From Oscillospiraceae bacterium (GTDB lineage Bacteria > Bacillota > Clostridia > Oscillospirales > Oscillospiraceae), in contig CADBYZ010000002.1 of assembly GCA_902799075.1 (NCBI GenBank), positions 1 through 52,185 on the forward strand: a stretch of DNA of 52,185 nucleotides, written 5' to 3'. The notes below the pieces were generated by a model. The model ran no database searches. It worked only from the letters and a program-made list of their open reading frames with translations, and had not been told where the DNA came from. The position numbers and the translations under genes are program-made. Positions 12,485 to 32,629 of the stretch are shown here, piece after piece (positions within the stretch are counted from its first letter, which is position 1; every line of letters starts with the position of its first letter).

Positions 12485-12520
12485 GAAAGCGCCCGCACTC
12501 CGGCGGCGGTATATAAGAAT

Positions 12521-12567
12521 CCAGTCCGTTTCTGTTGTTCATTCATGCAGAAACGGGCTGGATTTTT
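12521..12567 (+). terminator. Terminator after the YdcF-family gene
   Basis: A 14-bp stem (12521-12534, CCAGTCCGTTTCTG, with 12548-12561 and one G-U pair), a 13-base loop, then ATTTTTT. Confidence 0.85.
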
Positions 12568-12649
12568 TACATTGCTATATTGGTATCAGGTGCGGGTCTG
12601 TGTCAGATTCATGCCCAACCGTATAATTCAACAGAGACGCTTACATACA

Positions 12650-12781
12650 ATGAACGTTACTGACATCCGGCGTATCATCAGGGAAAACCGGCCGGCAAAG
12701 CTTCGGATCACGCCCAATGTATATCACCTCGCCGACGGCCTTCGTGCCGGCGTTGGGCTCATCACACCCGCTTTACTTTAG
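12650..12781 (+). CDS. Doubtful 43-residue open frame
   Basis: An ATG at 12650 opens a 43-residue frame whose composition (mixed charged and hydrophobic residues, ending 'VGLITPALL') looks protein-like, and a perfect TATAAT lies at 12622-12627. It has no clear -35 box or ribosome binding site, and its stop overlaps the end of the convergent VWA-FHA gene. It could be a small peptide gene, a decayed gene tail or chance. It lies in the otherwise empty 293-base gap 12485-12777. Confidence 0.22.
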   Translation: MNVTDIRRIIRENRPAKLRITPNVYHLADGLRAGVGLITPALL

Positions 12782-14358
12782 CTGTTGGAACGCCAGGTTA
12801 CAAAGAAGTCCGATTCACCCGCATGAATCACATCGTTCTGGTTAAGCGCGACTGCGCGGTCGATTTTGTTGCCGTTTACATATGTACCGTTCTTGGAGTT
12901 GATATCCTGAACATAGAGGATCCCGTTCTGCCAGATAAACTCCATATGTCTGCGGGAAATAGCCGGGTCGCCCGAAAGCTTCAGCGTGGATTCCAGGCCC
13001 GCCCTGAGGGTGGAGTCCGTGATTTCCCCGGTATAGCGTTCTCCGGTATCTTTTTTGGTCAGCTCAATCGTAACCTTGCTGCGCACCGGCATGGTCCCGC
13101 CTTCGTATTCGTCGACAACAGGTCTGGTTCTCGAGCTGCTGTAGTCATCAATTTCATCTGCCTTGGAACGCTTTTTCTTTATCAGCACGATCAGCAGGAC
13201 GATGAGCAGGATGAAGAGTACCCCGCCCAGAGCTGCGGCGATCATATTCTGCTTGACCCAGTCCATGACCTTTTTAATGCCGCCCTGAGGAGCAATTGGC
13301 TCACCGCACCACACACAGTGTCCGGTGCCGTCATCCTTGTGGGCAGCAAGCTCGCCGTTGGGGTTTTCCTCGCCGCAGATCGTGCAGGTTTCCGCGCTCT
13401 GGCAGGTCGCATTGTCGCCCCAGCTGTGCTCATGCTGTTCAGGAGGAGGAGCCGCTTCCGATACCGCAACTTCGACCTGTGCAAGGCTTGCGTCGAGGGT
13501 GTTGAACGAAACATGCAGCGTTCCTGTCGTCGCAGCTGTCAGCTCGGAAAGGTCAACCGACAAAACTGCGCATCTATTCTCATTATCCAGAATGGTTACG
13601 GCGGCATCTGCTCCGGCGCTTTTCGGGAAGGAATCCAGCGCGAAGGCCAGGCCGCTCGGCATGGCGTCAGAAAGAGCGCGCGTCTCATTAAAGGCGCTGA
13701 TGTAATTGGAAATTCCCCTTGTAATACCAACAGTATAGAAGGTGACGGAAGAATCCATCGCCTGCCGCTGCAGCTCTCTGAAACTGCAGGTGCTGTTCGT
13801 GTCAACGCAGCCGGAAACAAGCAGAAGGCACTTGCGAGGGTTGAGCGAGGGATTCGACTTAAACGCGGAGAATGCGGTGTTGATTGCGTCGTACAGGCGC
13901 ACATACCCGCCGTCAAAGGACTGCGCCGCCGCGGCGCTGACAAAAGCACGAATCGTCGGCATGTCGCTCACAAAAGAGGTCATCTCTCTGGTGGAGGCGT
14001 CAAGGACAGCCAGATTATCTTTCGGCCCAAGATGATTGACGAGGCTCTCAACCAGAGAAGTGGCCGTATCTGTGATGCTGCTGTTCGGAGACGGCTCCAG
14101 AACGACGATCCAGGATGTGCCGTAATCCGCATTCGAGAGCGCGCTTATTGTGTTGACCGGCAGCTTCGTGTCGTCGAGTCTGACCGAAAAGCTCTCGGGC
14201 GTGAGGATCGTGCTGCCTTTGGCGTAGAGAAGAATATCCAGACTGGCGTCGTTCTGCTGGTATCCAAGAATCTGGAGCGCAGAATCTCCGGCTGCGTATG
14301 CTGCCGTGCCTAACCCCAGCAGTAAAACACACAGCAGAAGCGAAATAAAACGTTTCAT
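12778..14358 (-). CDS. Membrane protein with extracytoplasmic VWA-like domain and cytoplasmic FHA domain
   Basis: A 526-residue type-I membrane protein. In order: a signal peptide (1-22), a VWA-like domain (about 50-290), a cysteine-rich stretch (about 315-360, one CxxC pair after 'ATCQSAETC' and a second in 'CVWCGEP'), a membrane helix (about 372-395), a basic stop-transfer segment (KKKRSK), and a C-terminal FHA domain (about 427-526) with 'ISRRHMEF' and 'NSKNGTYVNG'. The MIDAS motif, normally DxSxS, reads 'LEPSPNSS', so metal binding may be lost. The FHA residues that contact phosphothreonine are intact. It is the last gene of the kinase operon, 14 bases after the kinase, which is the likely source of its phospho-ligand. 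No clear terminator is visible downstream. Confidence 0.85.
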   Translation of the reverse strand: MKRFISLLLCVLLLGLGTAAYAAGDSALQILGYQQNDASLDILLYAKGSTILTPESFSVRLDDTKLPVNTISALSNADYGTSWIVVLEPSPNSSITDTATSLVESLVNHLGPKDNLAVLDASTREMTSFVSDMPTIRAFVSAAAAQSFDGGYVRLYDAINTAFSAFKSNPSLNPRKCLLLVSGCVDTNSTCSFRELQRQAMDSSVTFYTVGITRGISNYISAFNETRALSDAMPSGLAFALDSFPKSAGADAAVTILDNENRCAVLSVDLSELTAATTGTLHVSFNTLDASLAQVEVAVSEAAPPPEQHEHSWGDNATCQSAETCTICGEENPNGELAAHKDDGTGHCVWCGEPIAPQGGIKKVMDWVKQNMIAAALGGVLFILLIVLLIVLIKKKRSKADEIDDYSSSRTRPVVDEYEGGTMPVRSKVTIELTKKDTGERYTGEITDSTLRAGLESTLKLSGDPAISRRHMEFIWQNGILYVQDINSKNGTYVNGNKIDRAVALNQNDVIHAGESDFFVTWRSNS

Positions 14359-14372
14359 ATCTCATTCCTTCC

Positions 14373-16130
14373 TCAGTTGGTAGTTATAATCACTTTTTCT
14401 TTTCCAAATGTGATGGTTGAACCTACAGGCACTCTTTCTTCAGTATTCTCGTCAAGGCGGCGCCCGTCAAGCCAGGTACCGTGTCCGGACCGGCCGGTGA
14501 TAAAAATGTTTCCCGCGGCGTCGACCACAAGCTCGAAGTGTACGCGGCTTACAACATTATAAAGCAGCGGATAAACAATCGTACAGCGGTCCGGATTCCG
14601 GCCGAATATGTATCGCCCGGGGGCTACCGGGATCGTACTGCCCTGATAGAAGCCGTCTGTGATCTTGAGAACAAGCTGTTTTCCCGTCTGAGCTTCTCCC
14701 TTCAAGTGAGAGCTGCAGCCGGAGACCTCTTCGTTGAGCAGTTTCTTCGTTGCCAGATAATAGACCGCTTCCGCGGCCTTTATCGGCCATACGATTCTGA
14801 TAAGGCAATACAGAAGCGCTTGCCTGCGATCAGGCTTTATTCCGCCTGCCGAAACCTCCAGGCCGCACAGGACTTCACCCGGCCCGCCGTTGGCATCGGA
14901 GTTTGTCATAAGCCAGGTCACGATAACGCCGAGAGCGAGACCGGCGAGCATCCATACCGGAAGCGGTCCGCCGACAAGCTGACCGAGTGCAAAGGGCACC
15001 GCCTGGAAAAAGAACATATCCAGCACGAAAGCGACAAGCCTTCTGCTCCGGGGAGCCTTCGGCCCCGGTGGAAGAGGCTGTGGAGGCGGCGGAGGAGGCG
15101 GAAGCGGAACCGAGTGCCCGGCGGTCGTCAACTCCGGGTATGTCTGGTAAAGCTTTGCGGCCTCGGCGCTATTGATGCATTTCACGATTTCCTGCGCAAA
15201 GGACAGCATGCTCTGGCAACGCTGATCCGCGTCAAGAGACAGGTTCTTTTCCAGTGTCCGGATCTGCTGCTGTGTCAGCCCGCTGTGTGCAAAATCCAGT
15301 TCATCTCCCGCCTGTCTTTGAGAGGCGGAGGGAGGCCGTTTTCCGACACAGCAGCGGTAGAGCGTACCCGCCATGGCATAAATATCGCTCCAGATTCCCT
15401 GTGTATCCCCGCGGGTGGAAACCGTATGCTGTTCCGGGGGACTGTAGCCTTCTTTTTCAATCGGAATAAAGGAGCGGGCCAGAGGACTGTTGCGGGAAGC
15501 TGCCGCGCCGAAGTCAATGATCCTCACACTCCCGTCCCGGCAAAGGAACATGTTGTCCGGGCTGATATCGCGGTGCGTCGTCCCGGAGTCATGCACCTTC
15601 TTCATGCCAAGGATGAGCGGCATCATGAGCGTGACCGAGTCGGAGAAGCTGAGTTTGCCTTTGTGATCTCTCAGGTAGCTCAGAAGTGTTTCGCCTTCCA
15701 GAAACTCCATCACATAGTACGAAGTGTTGTTCTCGTCAAAGTCATCGTACAGACGTACGACCTCGGGGATGCTCTGTATGGAGCGCATAATCTGCGCTTC
15801 GCCCTTGAAATGCTTGAGACCATAGTCAAATGATTCGGGATCTTTCACCGTCATCTGACTAACGCCTTGCTCACGTACGCACCACGCGGAAGGATAATAC
15901 TCCTTGATTGCCACAATACGCCGCGTGAAAAGATCAAGCGCCTTATAAATTGTGCCGAAACCGCCCTTGCCGAGGAAGATCCCGGTCAAATAACGGCCGT
16001 TCAGCACAACACCGGGAGGGAGAACACCAACAGGCAAATTCAAATCTATTCTTTTTTTGCAGAATCTGCAGTATCCATTGCTGAGCGCGTCTTCCTGCAG
16101 GCAAACCGGACACACAGTTGAGGTATCCAC
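14373..16130 (-). CDS. Ser/Thr protein kinase with zinc ribbon, RDD membrane domain and FHA domain
   Basis: A eukaryotic-like kinase of about 585 residues. A small zinc ribbon (CPVC...CRFC) precedes the kinase domain (about 45-310) with glycine loop 'GKGGFG' (54-59), lysine in 'VAIKEY' (Lys76), catalytic loop 'HRDISPDN' (Asp188) and DFG (206-208), all intact. A proline-rich linker leads to an RDD-type membrane domain with two or three helices (about 365-450), then a C-terminal FHA domain ('YIFGRNPDR', 'VSRVHFEL', 'GHGTWLDG'). The start is GTG 16130, which has GGGAG 8 bases upstream; an ATG six codons earlier has no such site. It should phosphorylate Thr on partners that carry FHA domains. It lacks the PASTA repeats of the cell-wall kinase PrkC. 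Confidence 0.9.
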   Translation of the reverse strand: MDTSTVCPVCLQEDALSNGYCRFCKKRIDLNLPVGVLPPGVVLNGRYLTGIFLGKGGFGTIYKALDLFTRRIVAIKEYYPSAWCVREQGVSQMTVKDPESFDYGLKHFKGEAQIMRSIQSIPEVVRLYDDFDENNTSYYVMEFLEGETLLSYLRDHKGKLSFSDSVTLMMPLILGMKKVHDSGTTHRDISPDNMFLCRDGSVRIIDFGAAASRNSPLARSFIPIEKEGYSPPEQHTVSTRGDTQGIWSDIYAMAGTLYRCCVGKRPPSASQRQAGDELDFAHSGLTQQQIRTLEKNLSLDADQRCQSMLSFAQEIVKCINSAEAAKLYQTYPELTTAGHSVPLPPPPPPPQPLPPGPKAPRSRRLVAFVLDMFFFQAVPFALGQLVGGPLPVWMLAGLALGVIVTWLMTNSDANGGPGEVLCGLEVSAGGIKPDRRQALLYCLIRIVWPIKAAEAVYYLATKKLLNEEVSGCSSHLKGEAQTGKQLVLKITDGFYQGSTIPVAPGRYIFGRNPDRCTIVYPLLYNVVSRVHFELVVDAAGNIFITGRSGHGTWLDGRRLDENTEERVPVGSTITFGKEKVIITTN

Positions 16131-16205
16131 CGTCTGTACTCCCTTCATTCAGGCTATGTTTCGATTTGACTGCTCCAGCTTCCGTTGGAATCGGGAGCAA
16201 TTGCG

Positions 16206-16910
16206 TTACCACTGGAACTGATCAGAGCAGAAGGGAACAAAACGGAATATGCTGGTCCCGATTTCGATCAGGTCATAGGGATGGAGTTCAATGGTGGAAT
16301 TGCTGGGAAGCAGCTTATTGTTTACGCGGACAAGATTGGTGGACTGGCCGGCGCTCAGATAGAAGCAGTTCTCTCTGTCGTCGTATATGGTGTTGGCGTT
16401 TTTGCTGCGGGAGACGGCTCTGTCCTTCTTCAGAATCACATCGCCCTCATCCCTGCCGATAAAGGTATTGCCGGCATAAACCTCAAAGCTCCTGCCTATG
16501 TAGGGCCCGTCTACGGCGACAATCCAGCCGACGACATAGCGCTCCGGCAGATCGTCTTCGCTTTCGCATGCGTTATCCTGGGCACTGGTCTCTTTCACCC
16601 GTTTCGGCTTGACGATCGTGGTGGGGCCGATATTCTCGATCACGGGATTTTTCGGCGGCACAGTATCGCCGGAGCTGATCGGATAGTTGACACCAAACGT
16701 GTTGATAAAGCTGTTTGGAGAAGCTGTCGGAGTCGGGCTTTCCGGACTCATGTCAGATACATTAACAGAGCCGGTGTGGACAGACGTCTTAATGCCATAG
16801 TCGGAAACAGACCTGTCAATTCCGACGCTTGCGCCGTTGCAGTATGGGCAGGAGGGATACATGCTGGGATCATAATAGTGACCGTTTGCACATTGTTTCA
16901 GTTGAGCCAT
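16206..16910 (-). CDS. Soluble zinc-ribbon and FHA domain protein
   Basis: A 234-residue cytoplasmic protein. The N-terminus carries a CxxxH...CPYC-type zinc ribbon ('CANGHYYDP', 'CPYCNG'), followed by a low-complexity Ser/Thr/Pro linker (about 30-130) that could itself be a kinase substrate, then an FHA domain (about 135-230). The FHA arginine of 'FIGRDEG' is present, but the usual SRxH signature reads 'SRSKNAN', with the His replaced, so phosphopeptide binding may be weakened or altered. It lies between the protease-FHA and kinase genes on the same strand and is likely an adaptor in that circuit. It has no membrane segment. Confidence 0.82.
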   Translation of the reverse strand: MAQLKQCANGHYYDPSMYPSCPYCNGASVGIDRSVSDYGIKTSVHTGSVNVSDMSPESPTPTASPNSFINTFGVNYPISSGDTVPPKNPVIENIGPTTIVKPKRVKETSAQDNACESEDDLPERYVVGWIVAVDGPYIGRSFEVYAGNTFIGRDEGDVILKKDRAVSRSKNANTIYDDRENCFYLSAGQSTNLVRVNNKLLPSNSTIELHPYDLIEIGTSIFRFVPFCSDQFQW

Positions 16911-16956
16911 TCTCTTTGCCTCCGTTTATCTCATAAATCGTCTTTCATATACACGT

Positions 16957-18369
16957 TTATTGCAGGGTGAAGCGGTTGCTCTTGCTGCCGATATCGATCG
17001 ACAGACCGCGGTGGAGCGTTGTCGGGGTATTGGGTGTGAGCTGCTTCCCGTCTACCGCCGTGCCATAGCTGGATTTCAGGTCAGTGATCGTTGCGGTCTT
17101 GCCGTCAAAGCTGATTTTGCAGTGCAGGTTGCTGACGCCGGGGGTCTTATCCGGGAAAAGCACCTTACATTTGTTTTTGTCACGGCCGACATAAACAGCC
17201 TTGCCTTTTTCAATCGTAAAACGCTTGCCCGCCAGCGGCCCTTCCACGCCGACCAAAACACGCCGGGGGTTTGAAGGAGGCGCAATGTGTATATCCTTTC
17301 CGGTCTGGGTATGCGGGCCATCTTTCTTTACGGTCGGCTTGGGCTTGCGGAGAAGAACAATCAAAACAACTGCCACACCGAGTATGGCTGCGCAGAGAAT
17401 CCCGTAGAGCAGCCAGTTGGTGGTGGGGTTGTGCTGGGGCTGGGGTTTAACCGGCTCATCCGGCACATCCTGCGCCTCCGGCTTCTGTGCGCCTTCATCC
17501 TTCGGAGAGATGCTGTCCAGCCCGATAAGCGTATAGGGCACGTTGTTGCGATCCAGATACGGCTTGATGGTTTCCATACCGACGCCATAGCACAGATCGT
17601 CCACCGTCCAGGTGGTCACGGCAATTGCAGCGCCGTTGTCAAAGACCAGCGGCCCGCCCGAGTTGCCGTGATTGATTTTGGCGTCGAACTCGAGGATCTG
17701 AACGCCGGTGCCGGTCTCCGTGAAAATCTTGTTGACTATACCGGTCGTGATATGGGAGTCAGCCTCTCCGGTGATGGAGACAGACTTGAAAATCTCGTTG
17801 TCGGCAACGCCGGGGAAGCCGACCGTGATGACCTTTTTGTTGGGATCGGATACCGCCTGAGAAGGGACGGAAATCGGCAGCGCGGCGCGCTTGTCGGTAG
17901 GCTCCGCGAGACGCAGGATCGCGAAATCCTTCGGGTGGCGCAGGTTTTCGTCACGATAGTCGACATTCTTGGGGTCACCGACTTCCACAACAAAGGCTTC
18001 CGCATAGTCGTCTTTATCAAAATAAACGCGTATCTGCGCTCTGGCATAACCGGTAATGTTCCCGGCGTTGTCTACCGCATAGGCTCTTTGCCCCTCATCG
18101 TAGTACAGGTAATAATCAATAACATGCTGGTTCGTAATCAAATACTGGGGATTTTCACCCTCGTTCCCGATAAAGAAGCCCGTTCCTGCGCCCACGGGTA
18201 TCCATTCGCTCTCATAAAACACCTCGTCGGTGCTGAACATGTCACCAACGTAGACCCTCGCGACAGTGTGACGAAGCGTTTTCTCATCTGTTGGTGCGGC
18301 AAAGGCAGGGCCTGAAAGACTGAGCATAAGCACAAGTGCCAGTGCCAGGGAAATCAGCCTTTTCTTCAT
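16957..18369 (-). CDS. Membrane trypsin-like serine protease with cytoplasmic FHA domain
   Basis: A 470-residue type-I membrane protein: signal peptide (1-25), a chymotrypsin-fold protease outside the membrane (about 35-275), a proline-rich linker, a membrane helix (about 319-341), and a cytoplasmic FHA domain (about 370-470, 'VYVGRDKNK', 'GVSNLHCKI', 'SSYGTAVDG'). The catalytic triad looks intact: His82 in 'ITNQHVI', Asp148 in 'DFAILRL' and Ser237 in 'NHGNSGGP'. There is no PDZ domain, unlike HtrA/DegP. The FHA domain replaces it as the regulatory module, which suggests recruitment or control by the kinase in the same operon. AGAGGA precedes the ATG. The substrate is unknown. Confidence 0.88.
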   Translation of the reverse strand: MKKRLISLALALVLMLSLSGPAFAAPTDEKTLRHTVARVYVGDMFSTDEVFYESEWIPVGAGTGFFIGNEGENPQYLITNQHVIDYYLYYDEGQRAYAVDNAGNITGYARAQIRVYFDKDDYAEAFVVEVGDPKNVDYRDENLRHPKDFAILRLAEPTDKRAALPISVPSQAVSDPNKKVITVGFPGVADNEIFKSVSITGEADSHITTGIVNKIFTETGTGVQILEFDAKINHGNSGGPLVFDNGAAIAVTTWTVDDLCYGVGMETIKPYLDRNNVPYTLIGLDSISPKDEGAQKPEAQDVPDEPVKPQPQHNPTTNWLLYGILCAAILGVAVVLIVLLRKPKPTVKKDGPHTQTGKDIHIAPPSNPRRVLVGVEGPLAGKRFTIEKGKAVYVGRDKNKCKVLFPDKTPGVSNLHCKISFDGKTATITDLKSSYGTAVDGKQLTPNTPTTLHRGLSIDIGSKSNRFTLQ

Positions 18370-18413
18370 CTTGATAAATCCTCTCTTTCTTTTCTCTTTT
18401 ATCTGCTGCGTTG

Positions 18414-19310
18414 TTATTCGATGCCTAAGACAATAATCGTCAGGTTATCCTGGTGCGGGTTCTTCTTTGCGAGAATGGCATTCTTGACTGCCGTTGCAGC
18501 CTTCATGGGCTTTTGCATAAGCAGCTCCGTGAGCTCTGCCTCGGGCAAGTAATTATACACGCCGTCGGACATCAGGATCACCTTGTCGCCGGAAAACAGG
18601 GGAATCGCGTTGATGTTGCGGTCTACGACGACCTCGTCTGTCTTGCCAAGGTAGCTTGTTATGGCAGCGCGCTGTCGATCCGTCAAAGCCTCCTCCTCAC
18701 TGAGGACGCCGTTCAGGGCCAGGTCATCCAGTTCTCTCCCGTAAACGTGCTCTCGGTTCAGCTGGATCAGGCCGCCGTTTCTCATAAGGCAGATACGGCT
18801 GTCGCCGACAGAAACGAAATGCAGCTGCTGGTTGCGGATCAGTACGGCGATGAAGGTCGTGCCGCCGTCCGTGAGTCCTGTTTCAGAAACAGCTTCGCGG
18901 GCTCTTTTCAGGATACGCAGCATCGTTGCCTCGTCGCTCTTTTCAGGCGCCTCGGTGTTGAACGACTGGAGAGCCGCCTGCACGGCAACCTTTGAATAAA
19001 CTGCTCCGTTTGACAGCCCGCCCATTCCATCGGCCACAACGGCGAGCAGGCCGGTTTTTGCGATCGTCTCCTCATTGGAGGTGCCAAAGCAGTCCTGCTG
19101 CTCCTTTCTCGCGCCGGTGTCCTGATCGTTGCCGATCAAAATTCCGCCTCTTTTCGGAACCGCTGATTTGATATCGGGACCGTGGGTCTCGGGCAGAGGC
19201 ATCGTTTTACCCTCATCAGGGTCGCCTTTTGACCTTCTCAAAAACTTGAAAATACAATACACCCCCACTCCAATTAAAGCAGCTGCTATCAATGCATAAA
19301 TATAAGACAC
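18414..19310 (-). CDS. Membrane-anchored PP2C-family Ser/Thr phosphatase
   Basis: A 298-residue protein with an N-terminal membrane anchor (about 3-24, then FLRRSKG) and a cytoplasmic PP2C domain. The metal-binding motifs are present: 'RKEQQDCFG', 'VVADGMGGLSNG', 'VGDSRICLM', 'LMSDGVYNY' and 'QDNLTIIV'. It should remove phosphate from Ser/Thr marks made by the kinase encoded further along the operon. It lies 44 bases upstream of the protease-FHA gene and 24 bases downstream of a second PP2C gene. The membrane anchor distinguishes it from that soluble paralogue and suggests that it acts on the membrane FHA proteins. Confidence 0.9.
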   Translation of the reverse strand: MSYIYALIAAALIGVGVYCIFKFLRRSKGDPDEGKTMPLPETHGPDIKSAVPKRGGILIGNDQDTGARKEQQDCFGTSNEETIAKTGLLAVVADGMGGLSNGAVYSKVAVQAALQSFNTEAPEKSDEATMLRILKRAREAVSETGLTDGGTTFIAVLIRNQQLHFVSVGDSRICLMRNGGLIQLNREHVYGRELDDLALNGVLSEEEALTDRQRAAITSYLGKTDEVVVDRNINAIPLFSGDKVILMSDGVYNYLPEAELTELLMQKPMKAATAVKNAILAKKNPHQDNLTIIVLGIE

Positions 19311-19334
19311 TAATGCACATCCTTTCTCTGCGCT

Positions 19335-20162
19335 TTATGATGAAATACGCTCGACGACGATTACGCTCATGTTGTCCTGATGCGGCATTTTCTTTTCCAG
19401 AACATGCCTGACAAGCTCGTCCGATGCCTTGTCCGGCGTCAGCTCAAGGTCTTTGGCCATTTCTTCTTCAGAAAGAGACCGGTATATTCCATCGCTCATG
19501 AAGACAACTTTATCGCCTGTAAGCAGCCGGATGGGGTTTAAGGTCAAATCGATCCGGCGTATCTTTTCCGACCCGATTCCGGAGATGAGAGAATCCCGAT
19601 ACATATTATCTTTCGCGTCTTCAAAGGATATCTTTCCCATCCATGCCCGCTCATCCAAAGAGGGGCCGAGCACATGCTCCCGATTCAACTGCAGAGGGAC
19701 ATATTTTTTTTCGGTCTTGTGCTTACGGAAAAGGTATATCCTGCTGTCACCGACGGAGAGCATATAAAACCGGTCTTCCACAAACATGCCGGCAATCAGC
19801 GTCGTACCGCCGGGCTTTTCTTCATCGTAAATCTTGTACGCCTCATTATTCGCCCCGTAGGCCAGCGACAAAAGGATCGAAAACGGGGGAAGTCCTGTAT
19901 CGAGAGCCTCCTGAAAATGCTTCATCAGATACTCTACCGTGATCCAGCTGAATTGAGCGCCGTTTTTCATTCCCCCCATTCCATCTGCGAGAACTGCAAG
20001 CAGCGTTTGTTTCCCCTTGTACGTACCGAGCACCATACCGTAATCGTCCTGCTGCTCTTTTCGTGAGCCCTGGTTTGACTGGGCCCCTTTTTTCCAGTAG
20101 AAGGAGGAAATAACATTTTCGCTTTCCAATTGCCCGCTGTGTTCAGGCCTGCCGTCTTGCAT
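19335..20162 (-). CDS. Soluble PP2C-family Ser/Thr phosphatase
   Basis: A PP2C phosphatase of about 275 residues without a membrane segment. Conserved motifs are 'NQGSRKEQQDDYG', 'LADGMGGMKNG', 'VGDSRIYLF', 'FMSDGIYRS' and 'QDNMSVIVV', so the manganese-binding aspartates are intact. The start is ATG 20162, which has AGAGGAG about 6 bases before it; an in-frame ATG at 20183 has no such site. It is the second gene of the operon, after the HTH regulator. Its pairing with an anchored PP2C in the same operon implies a division of substrates or compartments. Confidence 0.9.
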   Translation of the reverse strand: MQDGRPEHSGQLESENVISSFYWKKGAQSNQGSRKEQQDDYGMVLGTYKGKQTLLAVLADGMGGMKNGAQFSWITVEYLMKHFQEALDTGLPPFSILLSLAYGANNEAYKIYDEEKPGGTTLIAGMFVEDRFYMLSVGDSRIYLFRKHKTEKKYVPLQLNREHVLGPSLDERAWMGKISFEDAKDNMYRDSLISGIGSEKIRRIDLTLNPIRLLTGDKVVFMSDGIYRSLSEEEMAKDLELTPDKASDELVRHVLEKKMPHQDNMSVIVVERISS

Positions 20163-20261
20163 ATAATCTCCTCTTCCATCCATTGTTTGCTGTCATATTT
20201 GTTCTGTAATCCTGTATCTTCGCTTTGCTGCCATGATAATAACAAAGAAAGAACGCTGCCG

Positions 20262-20280
20262 TGTCGCTTCCTAAGCGACA
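20262..20280 (-). promoter_or_regulatory. Hairpin directly after the HTH gene (possible attenuator)
   Basis: TGTCGCTT (20262-20269), a 3-base loop and AAGCGACA (20273-20280) form a perfect stem that abuts the stop codon of the HTH gene. Only a mixed pyrimidine stretch (GTTCTTTCTTTG) follows on the minus strand, so termination would be partial. Confidence 0.5.
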
Positions 20281-20745
20281 TTATTCCTTGCTGTACAGAT
20301 CAAGAAAATAATGTGCCTGCAGATGGGAATTAACATCGTCAATTGTGCTTTCCTTAATGATCCCGTTGCTGATGATAATATCCCTTGCCCGGTTTCCGCT
20401 CAATGGCGCGCAGCCGCCATAATGCAGAAGACGCTGCGTTTCATCGAAGCTCAAGCGGAGGACAAGCGCAAGACGAATCAGGACATTCCGCTGCGGATGC
20501 TTTGTGGAACCGTTCAGGATTTTGTACAGCGAAGCGCGGTTAAGCGCTGCCAGCTCAGCCAGCGCGTCTGTTGAAATGGCGCGCTTGCTCATAAAGCTGA
20601 TCAGACAAGCGCGAAGCGAGTTCGGCGGCAGCTCGTTTATTAACGCTGTCGGAGACGTATCTTGCCTCAGTGCCTTTTCCATGGCTCGTGTTTTTGAACT
20701 GTTTTCATCAAATTGGTGCAAACTCCCACCTTCTTCACTCATCAT
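20281..20745 (-). CDS. HTH transcriptional regulator at the head of the kinase operon
   Basis: A protein of about 154 residues. A central segment ('LAELAALNRASLYKILNGSTKHP') is a helix-turn-helix of the XRE/Cro kind, followed by 'RNVLIRLALVLRLSFDETQRLL', the usual continuation in such regulators. It probably binds DNA and controls its own operon. The start is uncertain. A frame extends to a TTG at 20859 with translation that looks unnatural, and the ATG pair at 20745/20742 is the more likely start although its ribosome binding site is weak. It is followed by a hairpin and then by the PP2C, protease, FHA and kinase genes. Confidence 0.65.
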   Translation of the reverse strand: MMSEEGGSLHQFDENSSKTRAMEKALRQDTSPTALINELPPNSLRACLISFMSKRAISTDALAELAALNRASLYKILNGSTKHPQRNVLIRLALVLRLSFDETQRLLHYGGCAPLSGNRARDIIISNGIIKESTIDDVNSHLQAHYFLDLYSKE

Positions 20746-20886
20746 AACATCCGAATAGCTTTGCTGTAATGCAGCGCCGAACACGGGCGGAGCATACCGT
20801 CCGTCAGAAACCTTGATAAGCAGCAACGCAAAAGCCGCCCGCCGTGCGGCATGCGCCAACGCCTTCAGCCTATGTTTATGAACTAT

Positions 20887-20915
20887 ATATTAACATGGGA
20901 GTATAGCGTTTGCAA
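20887..20915 (-). promoter_or_regulatory. Promoter of the HTH-PP2C-FHA-kinase operon
   Basis: On the minus strand TTGCAA (20915-20910), a 17-base spacer and TAATAT (20892-20887). Transcription would start near 20880, giving a leader of about 135 bases to the preferred start codon. Confidence 0.6.
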
Positions 20916-27694: not shown

Positions 27695-29896
27695 TTATTT
27701 TGCGGCTGTCTCTGCCGGAACATCAATGCGCTGGCGCGCGACCAGCTCGGCAAAAAAGCCGTCCTTTGCGATCAGCTCGTCGTATGTACCGTCCTCGAGG
27801 ATCCTGCCCTTGTCCAGGACCAGGATGCGGTCGCAGTTTTTGATGGTGGAGAGCCTGTGGGCAATGACGATGCGGGTGCACTTGAGCTTGTCCAGCGCGT
27901 CCGACACCTGCTTTTGCGTGCGGTTATCCAGGGCGGAGGTGGCCTCGTCGAAGATAAGGATCTTCGGCTTCGGGGCAACGGCGCGCGCGATCATGAGGCG
28001 CTGCTTCTGTCCGCCGGAGATGCCGCCCTGGCCCTCGGAGATGATGGTCTGCATGCCCATGGGCATGGCGCGGATATCGTCGGCGATGCCCGCCATTTCC
28101 GCGGCCTCCCACGCCTCCGGCAGCGAGAGGCTCGGCGCGGAGATGACGATGTTCGAGTAGATGTCCCCCTGGAAGAGGCTGCCGTCCTGGGTGACGGTGC
28201 CGATGCGGCGGCGCAGGGATCTGAGATCCAGCTTGGACATGTCCTTGCCGTCGTAGTAGATGGCCCCTCTCTCCGGGGTCTCGAAGCCCAGCAGCAGGCG
28301 CACCAGGGTGGACTTGCCGCAGCCGGTGCGGCCCACGATGGCGATGTACTCCCCGGACTTGATCTTGAGACTCATGCCGTCCACCACGTAGGGCATGGTG
28401 TCGGTATAGCGGAAGTAGACATTGGAAAGCTCGATGCCGCCCTTGAGGGAGGTGACCATTTCCTTGTTCTCGCTCGATTCCGGCTCGGTCTTCAAAATAG
28501 GCTCGGCCATTTCGAGGATGGGCTTGATCTGCGCGATGGACAGCGCCACGCTCGTCAGGGCGCTGAACGCGCCGGAGACCATGCCGTAGGCGGAGTTGAA
28601 AGCGATAAACTCCGAGGGGCTCACGCGGGTCTCGACGGCGATGGAGTAGATGATGATGTTGCCGACGAGGGCGATGGCGGTGGAGATGACGCCGTTGACG
28701 ATCAGGAACACCGGCGGGTTGTAGGTATAGCGGGCGGCGGCGGAGTAGGCGTCCGCCCAGCGGGCGAAGGCGCGCTTCTCGGCGCCGGCGAGCTTGACCT
28801 TCTGCACGCCCGAGATGAGCGCGTAGCTGATGCCGCTGGACTTGGCGCTCAGCTCCATGATCTGGCGGCTGACGCGGATCTGCATGATGGAAGCCGTGAT
28901 GCTCACCGCAAGGCTTGCGAGGATAATGATGATAGATGGCGTCACCAGCGCGGGGGCATACTTAAAGATCTGCGTGATGTACAGAAGGCTTGTAAGCGAG
29001 GTGAGGCCGGTGGAAAAGACGCTCCCCAGCAGCAGGGTGCAAAGCTGGTTCACCGCGCCCGAGCGGCTGGAAAGCTCGCCCGAAGAGTATTTGCGGAAAA
29101 AGTTTGCGGGCAGGTTCATGATGCGCATCATGATCGCCGCCTCCACCGAGAGGGAGGTCTTGATCTCGATGCGGTTCATCATCAGCTCACGCACGGTGGA
29201 GATGAGCTGGCTGGAGATGATGGCTGTGAGCAGGAAGATCGCCGTGCCGGCCAGAAGATTCAGGTTGCCGCTTTTCAGCACGAAATCCGTGAGCACGCGG
29301 TTGATGGGCGTAATGACCATGCCGAAGGCCGTGACCAGGAACGTCATGCCGATCAGCGCCGCCCAGTCGCCGATGTCCAGGCAGTCCGTGAGATAGCGGA
29401 TGAGATCGGGAATGCCCAGCGCTTTGAGCGGCAGGGGCCGGTAGAAGCAGATGGCCTCCTGCTGAAACTGGGCGGCGGTGGATTTGCTGAGAATTTTCTT
29501 CTCGCCGTTTTCGTCCTTGAAGCGGTAGCCGCTCACCGGCAGCGGGATCAGGGCCACCGGCAGACCGTCCTCCTTGCGGAAGGCGATCATGGGGCCGTAG
29601 GCGTCCTTGTACCAGCCCTCCTCCAGCTTCACGTTGCGGCGCATGATGCCGTGGGGGCGCAGGCAGTACTCCAGCGCCTCGTCCGCGTCGCCGACGGAGG
29701 CGGGGATGTCCACGGGCTTGTAGTGGTAGTATTTCAGGATATCGTCAATGGCGGCCTTGGTGACTATGCGCTTGTCATCCAGCGCGCCCGCCTGGCTCTT
29801 GCCCAGCACGACGGAGGCCATGCGGAAGATGGACTCTTCAAAAACGTCCTGATCGTTTTGTTTGCGCTGTCGGATCTGTTCGTCAAACCATCCCAT
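27695..29896 (-). CDS. NHLM-type exporter, ABC transporter (permease and ATPase, no peptidase)
   Basis: A 733-residue half-transporter. The N-terminal about 160 residues form a soluble domain that replaces the C39 peptidase of its partner. The six-helix permease spans about 170-450, and the ATPase domain about 490-730 with Walker A 'GRTGCGKST', signature 'ISGGQKQR', Walker B 'ILIFDEATSALDN' and the switch His in 'VIAHRLSTI'. Family knowledge: NHLM systems use one ABC protein with and one without a peptidase, exporting peptides that carry nitrile-hydratase-like or Nif11-like leaders. It follows the peptidase-bearing partner by 13 bases on the same strand and probably forms a heterodimer with it. 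Confidence 0.88.
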   Translation of the reverse strand: MGWFDEQIRQRKQNDQDVFEESIFRMASVVLGKSQAGALDDKRIVTKAAIDDILKYYHYKPVDIPASVGDADEALEYCLRPHGIMRRNVKLEEGWYKDAYGPMIAFRKEDGLPVALIPLPVSGYRFKDENGEKKILSKSTAAQFQQEAICFYRPLPLKALGIPDLIRYLTDCLDIGDWAALIGMTFLVTAFGMVITPINRVLTDFVLKSGNLNLLAGTAIFLLTAIISSQLISTVRELMMNRIEIKTSLSVEAAIMMRIMNLPANFFRKYSSGELSSRSGAVNQLCTLLLGSVFSTGLTSLTSLLYITQIFKYAPALVTPSIIIILASLAVSITASIMQIRVSRQIMELSAKSSGISYALISGVQKVKLAGAEKRAFARWADAYSAAARYTYNPPVFLIVNGVISTAIALVGNIIIYSIAVETRVSPSEFIAFNSAYGMVSGAFSALTSVALSIAQIKPILEMAEPILKTEPESSENKEMVTSLKGGIELSNVYFRYTDTMPYVVDGMSLKIKSGEYIAIVGRTGCGKSTLVRLLLGFETPERGAIYYDGKDMSKLDLRSLRRRIGTVTQDGSLFQGDIYSNIVISAPSLSLPEAWEAAEMAGIADDIRAMPMGMQTIISEGQGGISGGQKQRLMIARAVAPKPKILIFDEATSALDNRTQKQVSDALDKLKCTRIVIAHRLSTIKNCDRILVLDKGRILEDGTYDELIAKDGFFAELVARQRIDVPAETAAK

Positions 29897-29909
29897 TCAT
29901 GCCACCTCC

Positions 29910-32090
29910 TCAGTCGCTGGATATGAGCTCGGTGTAATACCCGCCCTTGGCGTAGAGCTCGTCGTGTGTGCCGCGCTCAACCACCTTGCCGTGGTCGAGG
30001 ACGATGATCTCGTCGCAGTCGCGGATGGTGGAAAGGCGGTGGGCGATCACGATGCAGGTGATGCCGCGGTCCTTGACCGCCTTGACCAGCTCGTACTCGG
30101 TCTTGGCGTCAAGGGCGGAGGTCGCCTCGTCCATGATAATAATGGAGGGGTCCTGGGCCAGGACGCGGGCGATCTCGATACGCTGGCGCTGTCCGCCGGA
30201 CAGATCCTTGCCGCCCTCTGTGAGCATGCCGTAGAAGCCGCCGTCGCGGGCCATGATGTCGTCATAGATCTGGGCGTCGCGGGCGGCAAGGATCATCTCG
30301 AAGTCCTCGATGGAGTTGTCCCACATCTTGATGTTGTTGGCGATGGTGTCCTCAAAGAGGGTAATGTCCTGGTCCACGACCGCGACCGAGCCGGTAAAGA
30401 CGCTGCGGTCGATGGTGTTGATGGGCCTGCCGTCAAAGAGGATCTCGCCGCTCCAGGGCTGGTAGAGCCCCGAGATGAGCTTGGAGAGGGTGGATTTGCC
30501 GCAGCCGGAGGTGCCGACGAAGGCAACACGGCTGCCGGGCTTCATGTGCATGGAGAAGTTTTCGATCAGGGGCTTGCCGAGTCTGGAATAGCCGAAGCAC
30601 ACGTCCTTGAGCTCCACCTCGCCGCCGAGCTTGGAGTAGTCCGCGTCCTCCTCCAGGGGGGTGTCGGTAAAGCTCGGGTCGACGGGATACTGCATCACGT
30701 CCTCCACGCGCTCCATGTCCGTGCGCATCTCCTGGATGGTCTGCCCGGCGGAGACGAGGGTCATGGCCGGGGACATGAAGGCGCTCAGAAAGCCCTGAAA
30801 GCTCATGATCGCGCCGAGCGTAAACGCCCCGCGCATCGCAAGGCCTACGCCGATCACGGTCACGGCGGCGTTTGCGATCATGGAAAGGGTGGAGGGGATG
30901 ATGCCTAAGTACTGGTTGATCTTGGCGAATTTGACCTTCTGGGTGTTGACCGAGGCCTGGTAGCCCGCCCATTTCTGGAAGTAGCCGTTCTCGGCGCCGC
31001 TGGACTTGATGGTCTCCACCATCTGGATGCCGGAGACCGTGGCGGCGGCGAGCTTGCCCGCGTCGCGCATCTGCACGCGGGTGATGTTCACGCGCTTTTT
31101 GGAGATTATGCGCGACACCAGCAGGTTCAGCACGATGGTCACGATGCCGACCAGGGTCAGCAGCGGGCTCATCTTGAGCATGACAAAGAGGTAGAACACC
31201 ATCATGATGGCGTTGAGAGCCAGAGGTGTGAGGGTGTTGACAAGGGTAGAGGAGATGGAGGCGTTGGTGCTCTGGCGCTGGAGGATATCGCCCGCCATGC
31301 GCTGGGAGAAAAACTCCATCGGCATGCGCAGCACCTTCCACATGTACTCGCTGCTGCCGACGATGCTCATCTTGCCGTCGATCTTGCGGGAGTAGACCGC
31401 CTGCACCCAGGCGACCACGATCTGCGCGATTCCCGTCACGGACATGAGCAGGATGAAGGGCATCAGCAGCTCCCTGTTTTCCCCGGTCAGGAGCCGGTCC
31501 ATGAAGAAGCGGGAGAAGATGGGGTTGATGATGCCGAAGAGATAGCTGATGACGCTTGCCAGCAGCACGAAGGCCACCGCCGCCCCCGCGCCCTTGAGCC
31601 GCTTGCGGGCAAACTCCAGTGTGCTCTTGGGCTTGCCGCCGGGCTGGAAGTCCGGGCCGGGGGTGATCTGGAGCACGATACCGGTAAAGGACGTGTCAAA
31701 CTCCTCCATCGGCACCTTGACCTCGCCGCGGGCGGGGTCGTTGAGCCAGGCGTAGTTGCCCTTGAAGCCGTCAAGCACCACAAAGTGGTTGAAGTTCCAG
31801 TGGATGATGCAGGGGAAGCACATCTCTTCCTTCAGGGCCGCCACCTCGCAGCGGAAGCCCTGGGCCTCGAAGCCGTAGCTGCGCGCGGCGATGAGGATGT
31901 TGCGCGCGTTGGAGCCGTCACGGCTCACGCCGCAGTCAAGGCGCACCTGCTCCAGCGGCACCCATTTGTCATAGTAGGCCATGACCATGGCAAGCGAGGC
32001 CGCGCCGCATTCCAGCGCCTCCATCTGCATGACGACCGGAACCTTGGCATGGCCTTTGGTCACCGGCTGTTTGATCTTGTTTTCTGCCAT
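29910..32090 (-). CDS. NHLM-type exporter, C39 peptidase ABC transporter
   Basis: A 726-residue transporter with an N-terminal C39 peptidase (about 15-145), a six-helix permease and a C-terminal ATPase. The peptidase triad is visible: Cys28 in 'LECGAAS', His102 in 'NHFVVLDG' and Asp118 in 'NDPA'. ATPase motifs are 'GTSGCGKST', 'LSGGQRQR', 'IIMDEATSALD' and the His of 'VIAHRLST'. It should cleave a leader after a double-glycine-like site and export the core peptide. It is preceded by a short HlyD-like protein and followed by its peptidase-less partner. No precursor peptide gene is visible nearby. Confidence 0.92.
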   Translation of the reverse strand: MAENKIKQPVTKGHAKVPVVMQMEALECGAASLAMVMAYYDKWVPLEQVRLDCGVSRDGSNARNILIAARSYGFEAQGFRCEVAALKEEMCFPCIIHWNFNHFVVLDGFKGNYAWLNDPARGEVKVPMEEFDTSFTGIVLQITPGPDFQPGGKPKSTLEFARKRLKGAGAAVAFVLLASVISYLFGIINPIFSRFFMDRLLTGENRELLMPFILLMSVTGIAQIVVAWVQAVYSRKIDGKMSIVGSSEYMWKVLRMPMEFFSQRMAGDILQRQSTNASISSTLVNTLTPLALNAIMMVFYLFVMLKMSPLLTLVGIVTIVLNLLVSRIISKKRVNITRVQMRDAGKLAAATVSGIQMVETIKSSGAENGYFQKWAGYQASVNTQKVKFAKINQYLGIIPSTLSMIANAAVTVIGVGLAMRGAFTLGAIMSFQGFLSAFMSPAMTLVSAGQTIQEMRTDMERVEDVMQYPVDPSFTDTPLEEDADYSKLGGEVELKDVCFGYSRLGKPLIENFSMHMKPGSRVAFVGTSGCGKSTLSKLISGLYQPWSGEILFDGRPINTIDRSVFTGSVAVVDQDITLFEDTIANNIKMWDNSIEDFEMILAARDAQIYDDIMARDGGFYGMLTEGGKDLSGGQRQRIEIARVLAQDPSIIIMDEATSALDAKTEYELVKAVKDRGITCIVIAHRLSTIRDCDEIIVLDHGKVVERGTHDELYAKGGYYTELISSD

Positions 32091-32101
32091 TGGGGATCTC
32101 C

Positions 32102-32518
32102 TCAGTTAAACAGCAGGTCCAGCACCTGTGTCTGCTTGTAGCTGATGCGCACAGGATAGACACCGTCGGCGAGGGTGGTGTTGGCGGTGGCGATGAGCAG
32201 GCCGTTATCGTCGCGGCCGATGCTGGAGATCACGGTCTCCGTGTCCCCGGCGCGCACCGGCATGCCCTTTTCCACTTTGTTGGTAAACTGCTGATCGTGG
32301 AAGCGGATGGTCATGACCCCGTTCTGCACCTGGGCCGAGCCCTCGGTATAGCTCTCGATGGTGGCGACGGAGCTCCAAACGAGCAGGCCTGCCAGCAGGA
32401 GGATCACTGCCGCGAGGATCACCCATACGGAGGCGTTGGTGACACGCAGATAGTCGTTGAGCTGCTCGGGTGAGGAAATGCGGTCGATGCTCTTTTGGCG
32501 GTAAAGCTGTTGGTCCAT
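32102..32518 (-). CDS. Short HlyD-like secretion protein of the export operon
   Basis: A 138-residue protein with a cytoplasmic N-terminus, one membrane helix (about 31-50) and an extracytoplasmic beta-rich part of about 85 residues. Position and layout correspond to the membrane-fusion protein of NHLM export systems, but it is much shorter than usual and lacks the coiled-coil hairpin. The start is ATG 32518, which has AAGGAG about 9 bases upstream; the frame extends further back without a ribosome binding site. It is the first gene of the operon and is 11 bases before the peptidase transporter. It may be a reduced form that works without an outer membrane. Confidence 0.72.
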   Translation of the reverse strand: MDQQLYRQKSIDRISSPEQLNDYLRVTNASVWVILAAVILLLAGLLVWSSVATIESYTEGSAQVQNGVMTIRFHDQQFTNKVEKGMPVRAGDTETVISSIGRDDNGLLIATANTTLADGVYPVRISYKQTQVLDLLFN

Positions 32519-32566
32519 ATCCTTCTCTCCTTGTCGGGCAAGAAATCGGTTTACATATTCCGTTTT

Positions 32567-32595
32567 ATTATACGCCCCTTCGCCGGGAAAATCAA
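32567..32595 (-). promoter_or_regulatory. Promoter of the NHLM-type export operon
   Basis: Minus strand: TTGATT (32595-32590), a 17-base spacer, and a perfect TATAAT (32572-32567), about 50 bases before the first ATG. Confidence 0.75.
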
Positions 32596-32629
32596 TGGTG
32601 CAATTGGATAGAATTGTGAACATGTTTTA

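Follow-up and report, generated by a model that had tools for sequence, protein, structure and literature searches.

A recurrent Bacillota gene cluster joining a Ser/Thr kinase, PP2C phosphatases and FHA-domain proteins to a predicted extracytoplasmic HtrA-like protease

The DNA analyzed here is a 52,185-nt stretch of contig CADBYZ010000002.1 from an Oscillospiraceae bacterium (referred to as "the window"); the genome to which it belongs (G000) is 76% complete. Between positions 12778 and 20859, seven open reading frames are arranged on the minus strand with intergenic gaps of 14–97 bases, and all seven were also called by a codon-based gene picker. Their products (Table 1) include a Ser/Thr kinase, two PP2C phosphatases and four FHA-domain proteins, one of them a trypsin-like protease. 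FHA domains read phosphothreonine, PP2C enzymes erase it, and kinase/PP2C/FHA sets control type VI secretion in Proteobacteria. An earlier note made from this DNA had described a seven-gene, same-strand set with short gaps behind one promoter. The gene set was recovered as described. The promoter can be read at 20915–20887, but it appears weak and was not among the 15 sites returned by a promoter scan.

Table 1. Features of the operon and its surroundings in the window
Feature	Positions	Strand	Evidence
Putative promoter, TTGCAA-17-TAATAT	20887..20915	-	8/12 consensus positions; under the scan threshold of 9
HTH (Cro/C1-type) protein, 192 residues from TTG, shorter from ATG at 20745	20281..20859	-	HTH_26 1.8e-5
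Soluble PP2C phosphatase, 282 residues	19335..20183	-	PP2C_2 2e-10
Membrane-anchored PP2C: N-terminal transmembrane helix, predicted cytosolic linker with EGKTMPL, PP2C	18414..19310	-	PP2C_2 3.6e-16; helix 6-24
Predicted signal peptide, trypsin-like (HtrA-type) domain, transmembrane helix, FHA	16957..18369	-	Trypsin_2 1.9e-16, FHA 2.3e-13; His-Asp-Ser triad intact
Zinc knuckle, linker, FHA; GarA/OdhI-like candidate adaptor	16206..16910	-	Profile comparison, alignment, structure model
Zinc ribbon, Ser/Thr kinase, RDD-like membrane segment, FHA	14373..16148	-	Pkinase 5.7e-28, FHA 6.6e-11, RDD 0.0013 (below cut-off)
Predicted signal peptide, VWA-like domain (metal-site residues lost), transmembrane helix, FHA (GR pair lost)	12778..14358	-	Hydropathy, alignment, model
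Broken relic of a further FHA gene	12641..12763	-	tblastn, 20/44 identical to the protease FHA
Hairpin between the convergent operon and plus-strand DUF218 gene	12505..12575		RNA fold -25.7 kcal/mol, z -7.2
NHLP-type peptide/bacteriocin exporter pair	27695-29896, 29910-32090	-	Both above NCBIfam cut-off
Weak HlyD-like partner of the exporter	32102-32623	-	Far below cut-off

Pfam matches above cut-off were obtained for the kinase and its FHA domain, the trypsin-like domain (Trypsin_2) and its FHA domain, both phosphatases, the FHA domain of the VWA protein and the HTH_26 domain. Matches to VWA (best E 0.0099) and RDD fell below it, as did the FHA domain of the zinc-knuckle protein (19.4 bits against a cut-off of 20.7; 21.3 bits, just above, in a genome-wide search). 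Five FHA matches were found in the whole genome, four of them in the operon; the fifth (L053, G000:C22:59438-59644) is located outside it, close to a contig end. The soluble phosphatase carries the ADG, GDSR, SDG and DN motifs of the PP2C family. By hydropathy, the protease and the VWA protein each have a signal peptide and one transmembrane helix, one PP2C has a single N-terminal helix, and the RDD part of the kinase has two; none was detected in the soluble PP2C, the zinc-knuckle protein or the HTH protein. Given this topology, the FHA tails are predicted to be cytosolic and the protease and VWA domains to be outside. The T-run of the hairpin beyond the operon is on the plus strand; thus, the hairpin is likely the terminator of the DUF218 gene, and only possibly that of the operon.

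Domains were called in cluster maps and motif counts using home-made profile hidden Markov models iterated from the window's own domains. Among the 60 nearest genomes, the trypsin-FHA fusion occurs only in G000, G018 and G022 (3/37 of the genus), and loci L046 and L047 also carry zinc-knuckle-FHA, PP2C and zinc-ribbon kinase genes. Across a sample of 293 genomes of the class, the fusion was found in 17, belonging to eight families (f1, f25, f33, f38, f48, f68, f69 and f90), after one of 18 genomes (G129, trypsin part only) had been dropped. In the same sample, zinc-knuckle-FHA proteins were detected in 28 genomes. At a threshold of E 1e-100, the zinc-ribbon kinase was detected in 23, with the top four candidates scored per genome; 33 genomes have it at 1e-60, and the ten left out had best E-values between these limits, with a gap from 2e-102 to 3e-82. 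Full-length VWA-FHA proteins were counted in ten genomes, the other 90 of 100 with partial FHA or VWA matches being left out; these ten are the genomes of the ten profile seeds, and the search of the 293 genomes added no further full-length copy. A three-row seed (A1), of which the window is the sole row in the sample, matched 12/293 genomes, the match in G150 being confined to the FHA part.

These genes co-occur. The trypsin-FHA fusion shares its genome with the kinase in 13/17 cases (1.33 expected) and with zinc-knuckle-FHA in 14/17; zinc-knuckle-FHA is found with the kinase in 19/28 and VWA-FHA with trypsin-FHA in 9/10. For the six pairs tested, Fisher's p was at most 2e-10, uncorrected for shared ancestry. 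The genes are also neighbors: within 6 kb of 25 trypsin-FHA genes (that of the window included), PP2C was found at 24 loci (two copies at 18), another FHA protein at 22, the kinase at 21 and VWA-FHA at seven. Three of the four loci lacking a kinase (L188, L210 and L213) are at or near contig ends. All four components (trypsin-FHA fusion, PP2C, FHA adaptor and kinase) are present together in the window. Across 19 loci, the pairwise identities of the trypsin-FHA proteins were correlated with those of the zinc-knuckle-FHA proteins (r 0.69; 0/5000 permutations as high), as expected from joint inheritance or from shared species history. A sample of 398 genomes of the phylum yielded six carriers of the fusion outside the class (G699, with no FHA in frame, was dropped), and PP2C adjoins it in four of these six short loci. 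Named carriers (L108–L112) are metagenome-assembled genomes labelled Clostridiales, Mageeibacillus, Ruminococcaceae, Clostridia and Ruminococcus. The earlier note had read the operon as a circuit of writer, reader and eraser that governs proteolysis or adhesion outside the cytoplasm, a reading at odds with genes scattered among genomes or with a cluster already named. The set itself, with its predicted external protease, is supported; the neighborhood proved to be conserved across several families. As a side observation, 8/73 neighbor proteins of this main cluster type have a match to Cu_amine_oxidN1 and may represent a secreted partner that recurs.

In the window protease, the triad (H82, D148 and S237) is intact, and the nearest solved structures by profile comparison are of HtrA type (HtrA, HTRA1, HTRA2 and DegS among them). 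The triad is kept in 21/25 aligned trypsin-FHA proteins and lost in those of L200, L213, L216 and L217. The FHA residues G-R/K, S and H are conserved in all 25, including the four without a triad, and the cytosolic reader is thus the more constant part of the protein. Docking may accordingly be the constant function and proteolysis one output among several. Membership in the HtrA/Do family was considered and rejected: the window protease shares the protease domain and triad with HtrA/DegS-type enzymes, but it has no PDZ domain by Pfam, a predicted cytosolic FHA tail takes that place, and the family model TIGR02037 scored 32/416 bits.

The catalytic Lys, the HRD Asp and the DFG Asp are kept in 20/20 aligned kinases, the window kinase included, although two orphan kinases in the alignment have DMG and DLG in place of DFG; all 20 also keep every one of the four zinc-ribbon Cys. 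A first scan of genome contigs with the window kinase returned no relative. The genome of the window contains six other members of the kinase subfamily (E <1e-40), on contigs 5, 6 (three), 26 and 37, so the circuit is not "self-contained" as the earlier note had proposed. Each of these six has CxxC pairs and one transmembrane helix after the kinase domain. Five have recognizable ectodomains (Sel1, RCC1 plus Sel1, TPM, LRR_5 and RCC1), and the sixth was not recognized. Eleven such kinases (E <1e-40) were counted in G022, and the ectodomain of one of them is of the solute-binding NMT1 type; G018 contains two, its cluster holding a further two that match more weakly, and three other genomes among the 60 nearest have one each. 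The three hub genomes are thus the richest in zinc-ribbon kinases, as would be expected of one hub serving many receptors. Fusions of kinase and FHA were seen repeatedly (the window, L192 and L194).

The zinc-knuckle-FHA family was aligned using 31 members. A knuckle of the form C..NGHxYD...CPYC (Cys in 29/31) is followed by a linker and a divergent FHA domain (GR in 30/31, Ser in 29/31). Profile comparison with solved structures placed GarA nearest and OdhI close behind, followed by others, and the fold neighbors of the adaptor model include DgcB with its own phosphopeptide. The DgcB paper (PMC6733907) reports self-binding through the tail for both GarA and OdhI and stresses a hydrophobic residue at +3. 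A Thr is aligned ahead of the FHA domain in 23/31 family members, that of the window included; an acidic residue is found within the four preceding positions in 21 of these 23, and a hydrophobic residue at +3 in 15. This Thr may be a target of the kinase, in the manner of GarA and OdhI.

Because the linkers align loosely, more weight is carried by an alignment-free count. The motif [KRG]T[VMIL][AGPS][ILVMF] was matched 24 times, in the linkers of 14/32 zinc-knuckle-FHA proteins, versus 0.49 by shuffling; control neighbor proteins had 0/73 and 2/52. In VWA-FHA proteins there were four matches versus 0.45, three of the four apparently from close relatives, and in kinases five versus 3.04. A shorter pattern, GKT/GRT[VMIL], gave six matches in kinases versus 1.62, kinase ectodomains being counted in. 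A phosphothreonine motif common to all members was considered and not upheld; no enrichment was seen in trypsin-FHA proteins (2 vs 1.02) or PP2C (1 vs 0.76). The copies in the window are EGKTMPL in the membrane PP2C and EGGTMPV in the VWA protein; two or more copies arose in 36/20000 shuffles, for a pattern picked after the sequences had been seen.

AlphaFold models of the VWA-FHA and zinc-knuckle-FHA proteins (mean pLDDT 70 and 76) were compared to known folds in Foldseek. The modeled FHA folds are supported in both proteins, the VWA-like domain less strongly: single VWA domains matched at a TM-score of ca. 0.6 on their own length, and a chain of ArnAB, the second match, at 0.28 to the whole query. 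At the metal site, 7/10 aligned VWA-FHA proteins have D-x-S-G; the window protein reads E-P-S-P, and its FHA domain lacks the GR pair at the corresponding position. The earlier description of this domain as VWA-like is therefore borne out in the modeled fold and not in the metal site, and the adhesion that had been proposed for it is not favored in the window copy. In the wider set of proteins with the order signal peptide, ectodomain, transmembrane helix and FHA, most ectodomains are VWA; that of L194 is Ig-like by inspection, and that of G287, in the VWA-FHA set, appears Ig-like rather than VWA. The HTH protein had been counted as a member of the set; homologues were found (phmmer) in only 2/56 other loci scanned (L215 and L191), so the gene is rarely conserved and is no regular member.

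Third-position GC is 0.55–0.67 in the seven operon genes, compared to a mean of 0.81 (sd 0.07) over 40 genes called elsewhere in the window. This composition and the patchy distribution in the genus make horizontal acquisition of the block probable. Its edges are not sharp, with a GC of ~0.5 up to about 21.5 kb.

The interpretation that fits these observations best, with a probability of roughly 0.55, is that of a recurrent Bacillota hub in which several receptor kinases feed FHA readers that link phosphothreonine to an HtrA-like ectodomain. Zinc-ribbon kinases, both the RDD-anchored one of the operon and the scattered single-pass receptor kinases, would phosphorylate Thr residues in the adaptor and in the tails of the membrane proteins. 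FHA domains in the soluble GarA/OdhI-like adaptor, in the protease and in the VWA protein (the latter two on the cytosolic side) would act as readers, and their docking on phosphothreonine would assemble the two membrane proteins with the kinase. The two PP2C enzymes, one of them tethered to the membrane, would reset the phospho-state. As the likely output, the external protease and the VWA protein that accompanies it would be controlled from the inside out, through being recruited or clustered. Phosphorylation sites, binding partners, signaling direction and protease substrate are all conditional in this scheme. Its extension to a phylum-wide network, in which variable zinc-ribbon receptor kinases would share one phosphothreonine hub controlling the outer protease and VWA domain through FHA-helix-ectodomain proteins, is more tentative and is held at somewhat less than even odds.

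Several results weigh against the inside-out hub. The aligned Thr is missing in 8/31 adaptor family members, and in the window adaptor Gln takes the place of a hydrophobic residue at +3. The window VWA protein has lost both its metal-site residues and its FHA GR pair. With four of the 25 protease domains probably inactive, proteolysis cannot serve as the output in every copy. The kinase falls below threshold in 4/17 trypsin-FHA genomes (G082, G127, G213 and G326), and 9/28 zinc-knuckle-FHA genomes are without the kinase subfamily, eight of these having a different FHA cluster. Finally, the profile seeds comprised 16/17 trypsin-FHA genomes and all ten VWA-FHA genomes, and the genomes are phylogenetically non-independent.

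The constancy of the reader, together with the four lost triads, would also suit signaling in the opposite direction, in which the protease and VWA ectodomains would be DegS-like sensors whose state is passed inward by the FHA tails, bringing in the kinase and the adaptor; the protease would then often be a receptor only. The variety of ectodomains joined to FHA (VWA mostly, Ig-like in L194) is consistent with such a role. However, most of the aligned proteases keep their triad, and the sensing could already be done by the separate receptor kinases, whose ectodomains are diverse; this outside-in direction is considered unlikely.

Association with a secretion machine was also weighed. The earlier note had seen no secretion machinery here. 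That holds for the operon itself, but the NHLP-type exporter (27695–32090) begins ~7 kb upstream, and in two genomes trypsin-FHA genes are near an FtsK/SpoIIIE ATPase (1516 residues in G082, 1507 in G326). Further, in G012, of the same genus (L049/L050), FHA, PP2C and kinase genes adjoin a 1507-residue FHA-bearing protein that we take, by its length, to be EssC-like, suggesting a set linked to a type VIIb secretion system (T7SSb). The operon could thus be the regulatory module of a T7SSb-like or NHLP machine located elsewhere or lost. Against this, WXG100 substrates had no match in the window's 76%-complete genome, no recurrent secretion family appears among the 25 of 114 families listed for the 73 neighbors of the main type, and seven called genes on both strands separate the operon from the exporter. 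Such a role is judged rather improbable.

A decaying cassette, in which the phosphatases and kinase would still work and the VWA arm would not, is suggested by the FHA relic downstream of the operon and by the lost residues of the VWA protein; with seven long frames intact and the active-site residues of kinase and protease kept, it is very unlikely. Matches of the kinase to the PADLOC mad6 and PD-T4-6 models, together with the patchy, compositionally foreign occurrence, would suit a role in phage defense or conflict like that of the kinase/PP2C/VWA sets TerY-P and MADS, yet such a role is hardly credible, given that the matches listed cover the kinase domain, that no other MADS component is among the matches listed for the seven proteins, that the VWA and protease domains are predicted to be extracellular, and that the protease had no match in plasmid and phage collections.

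The cluster was also compared to named systems. The logic of writer, eraser and reader is shared with PpkA, PppA and Fha of the type VI secretion system (T6SS); membership was rejected, the best TagH/Fha score (TIGR03354) being 18.2/120.25 bits and confined to the FHA part, and no T6SS core gene was found in the operon or the scanned flanking genes, no genome-wide search for Tss proteins having been made. PrkC-PrpC and PknB-PstP likewise pair receptor Ser/Thr kinases with PP2C. The PASTA-kinase model matched at 113.6/450 bits in the kinase region only, no PASTA domain was found by Pfam, and a zinc ribbon stands at the N-terminus instead; this assignment was rejected. The TerY-P triad, in which a cytosolic VWA protein (TerY) accompanies kinase and PP2C, was rejected because the window VWA domain is predicted by hydropathy to be outside, behind a signal peptide and ahead of a transmembrane helix. 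MADS was rejected as well: the mad6 match is limited to positions 49–262 of a 659-position profile, the matches listed include no second mad model, and NF047741 scored 97/460 bits. GarA and OdhI of Actinobacteria, which are self-binding FHA switches (PMC6733907), resemble the adaptor in the profile match and in the aligned Thr; unlike them, the window family adds a zinc knuckle and shares an operon with a membrane protease. Among NCBIfam models, OdhI was not reported for the window adaptor, and FhaB scored 13.6/125 bits. Nearest in its parts is ArnA/ArnB of the Sulfolobus archaellum regulatory network, in which, according to the available part of the source (PMC6509490), a zinc-finger protein with a C-terminal FHA domain has a VWA protein as its partner, and Ser/Thr kinases as well as a phosphatase act on them; that system is archaeal, its phosphatase is PP2A rather than PP2C, and the same part describes neither a protease nor an FHA-helix-ectodomain fusion. 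The accessible parts of a conflict-system survey in eLife (PMC7159879), a 2005 kinase survey (PMC1262709) and a 2025 PP2C survey (PMC12088040) contain no such cluster. As the earlier note had supposed, no named cluster of this composition was found in the open-access literature, although it may be described in subscription papers.

Related arrangements were observed alongside. TIR-FHA fusions occur in genomes of the same genus (L052 5276–16225, L062 3766–8474 and L048 4917–6218); in L052 and L062 they adjoin PP2C and kinase, and in L052 the genes form an unbroken run with an NHLP exporter pair. Double-FHA ABC transporters, presumably Rv1747-like, adjoin the hub in L047 (2893–5556) and L200 (11319–13634), and L196 (7698–10004) has the same layout of FHA and transmembrane segments, its ABC part being unscanned. 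A second cluster type without kinase or protease consists of transmembrane-FHA, zinc-knuckle-FHA, transmembrane-PP2C and PP2C-transmembrane proteins (L198, L201, L204, L206, L207, L209 and L211); L208 is of this type, with no PP2C detected. When 52 neighbors were scanned, drawn from the second-type loci plus five others, phage-baseplate/VgrG-like domains were found in two and DnaJ in four. A SpoVAD gene is also present in the window.

The cluster is a real, recurrent and, as far as was searched, unnamed composition of known parts, and it belongs to bacterial Ser/Thr phospho-signaling. An FHA domain joined by a membrane helix to an outer protease is an unusual possible means by which Ser/Thr phosphorylation could exert control from the inside out in Gram-positive bacteria, and the kinases with LRR, RCC1, Sel1, TPM and solute-binding ectodomains resemble a bacterial parallel to receptor-kinase families. 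Because the gene set is compact and recurrent and encodes expressible domains, writer, reader and eraser could be matched in vitro. If inside-out control is true, the cluster would represent a new kind of bacterial receptor-kinase circuit, one open to direct testing.

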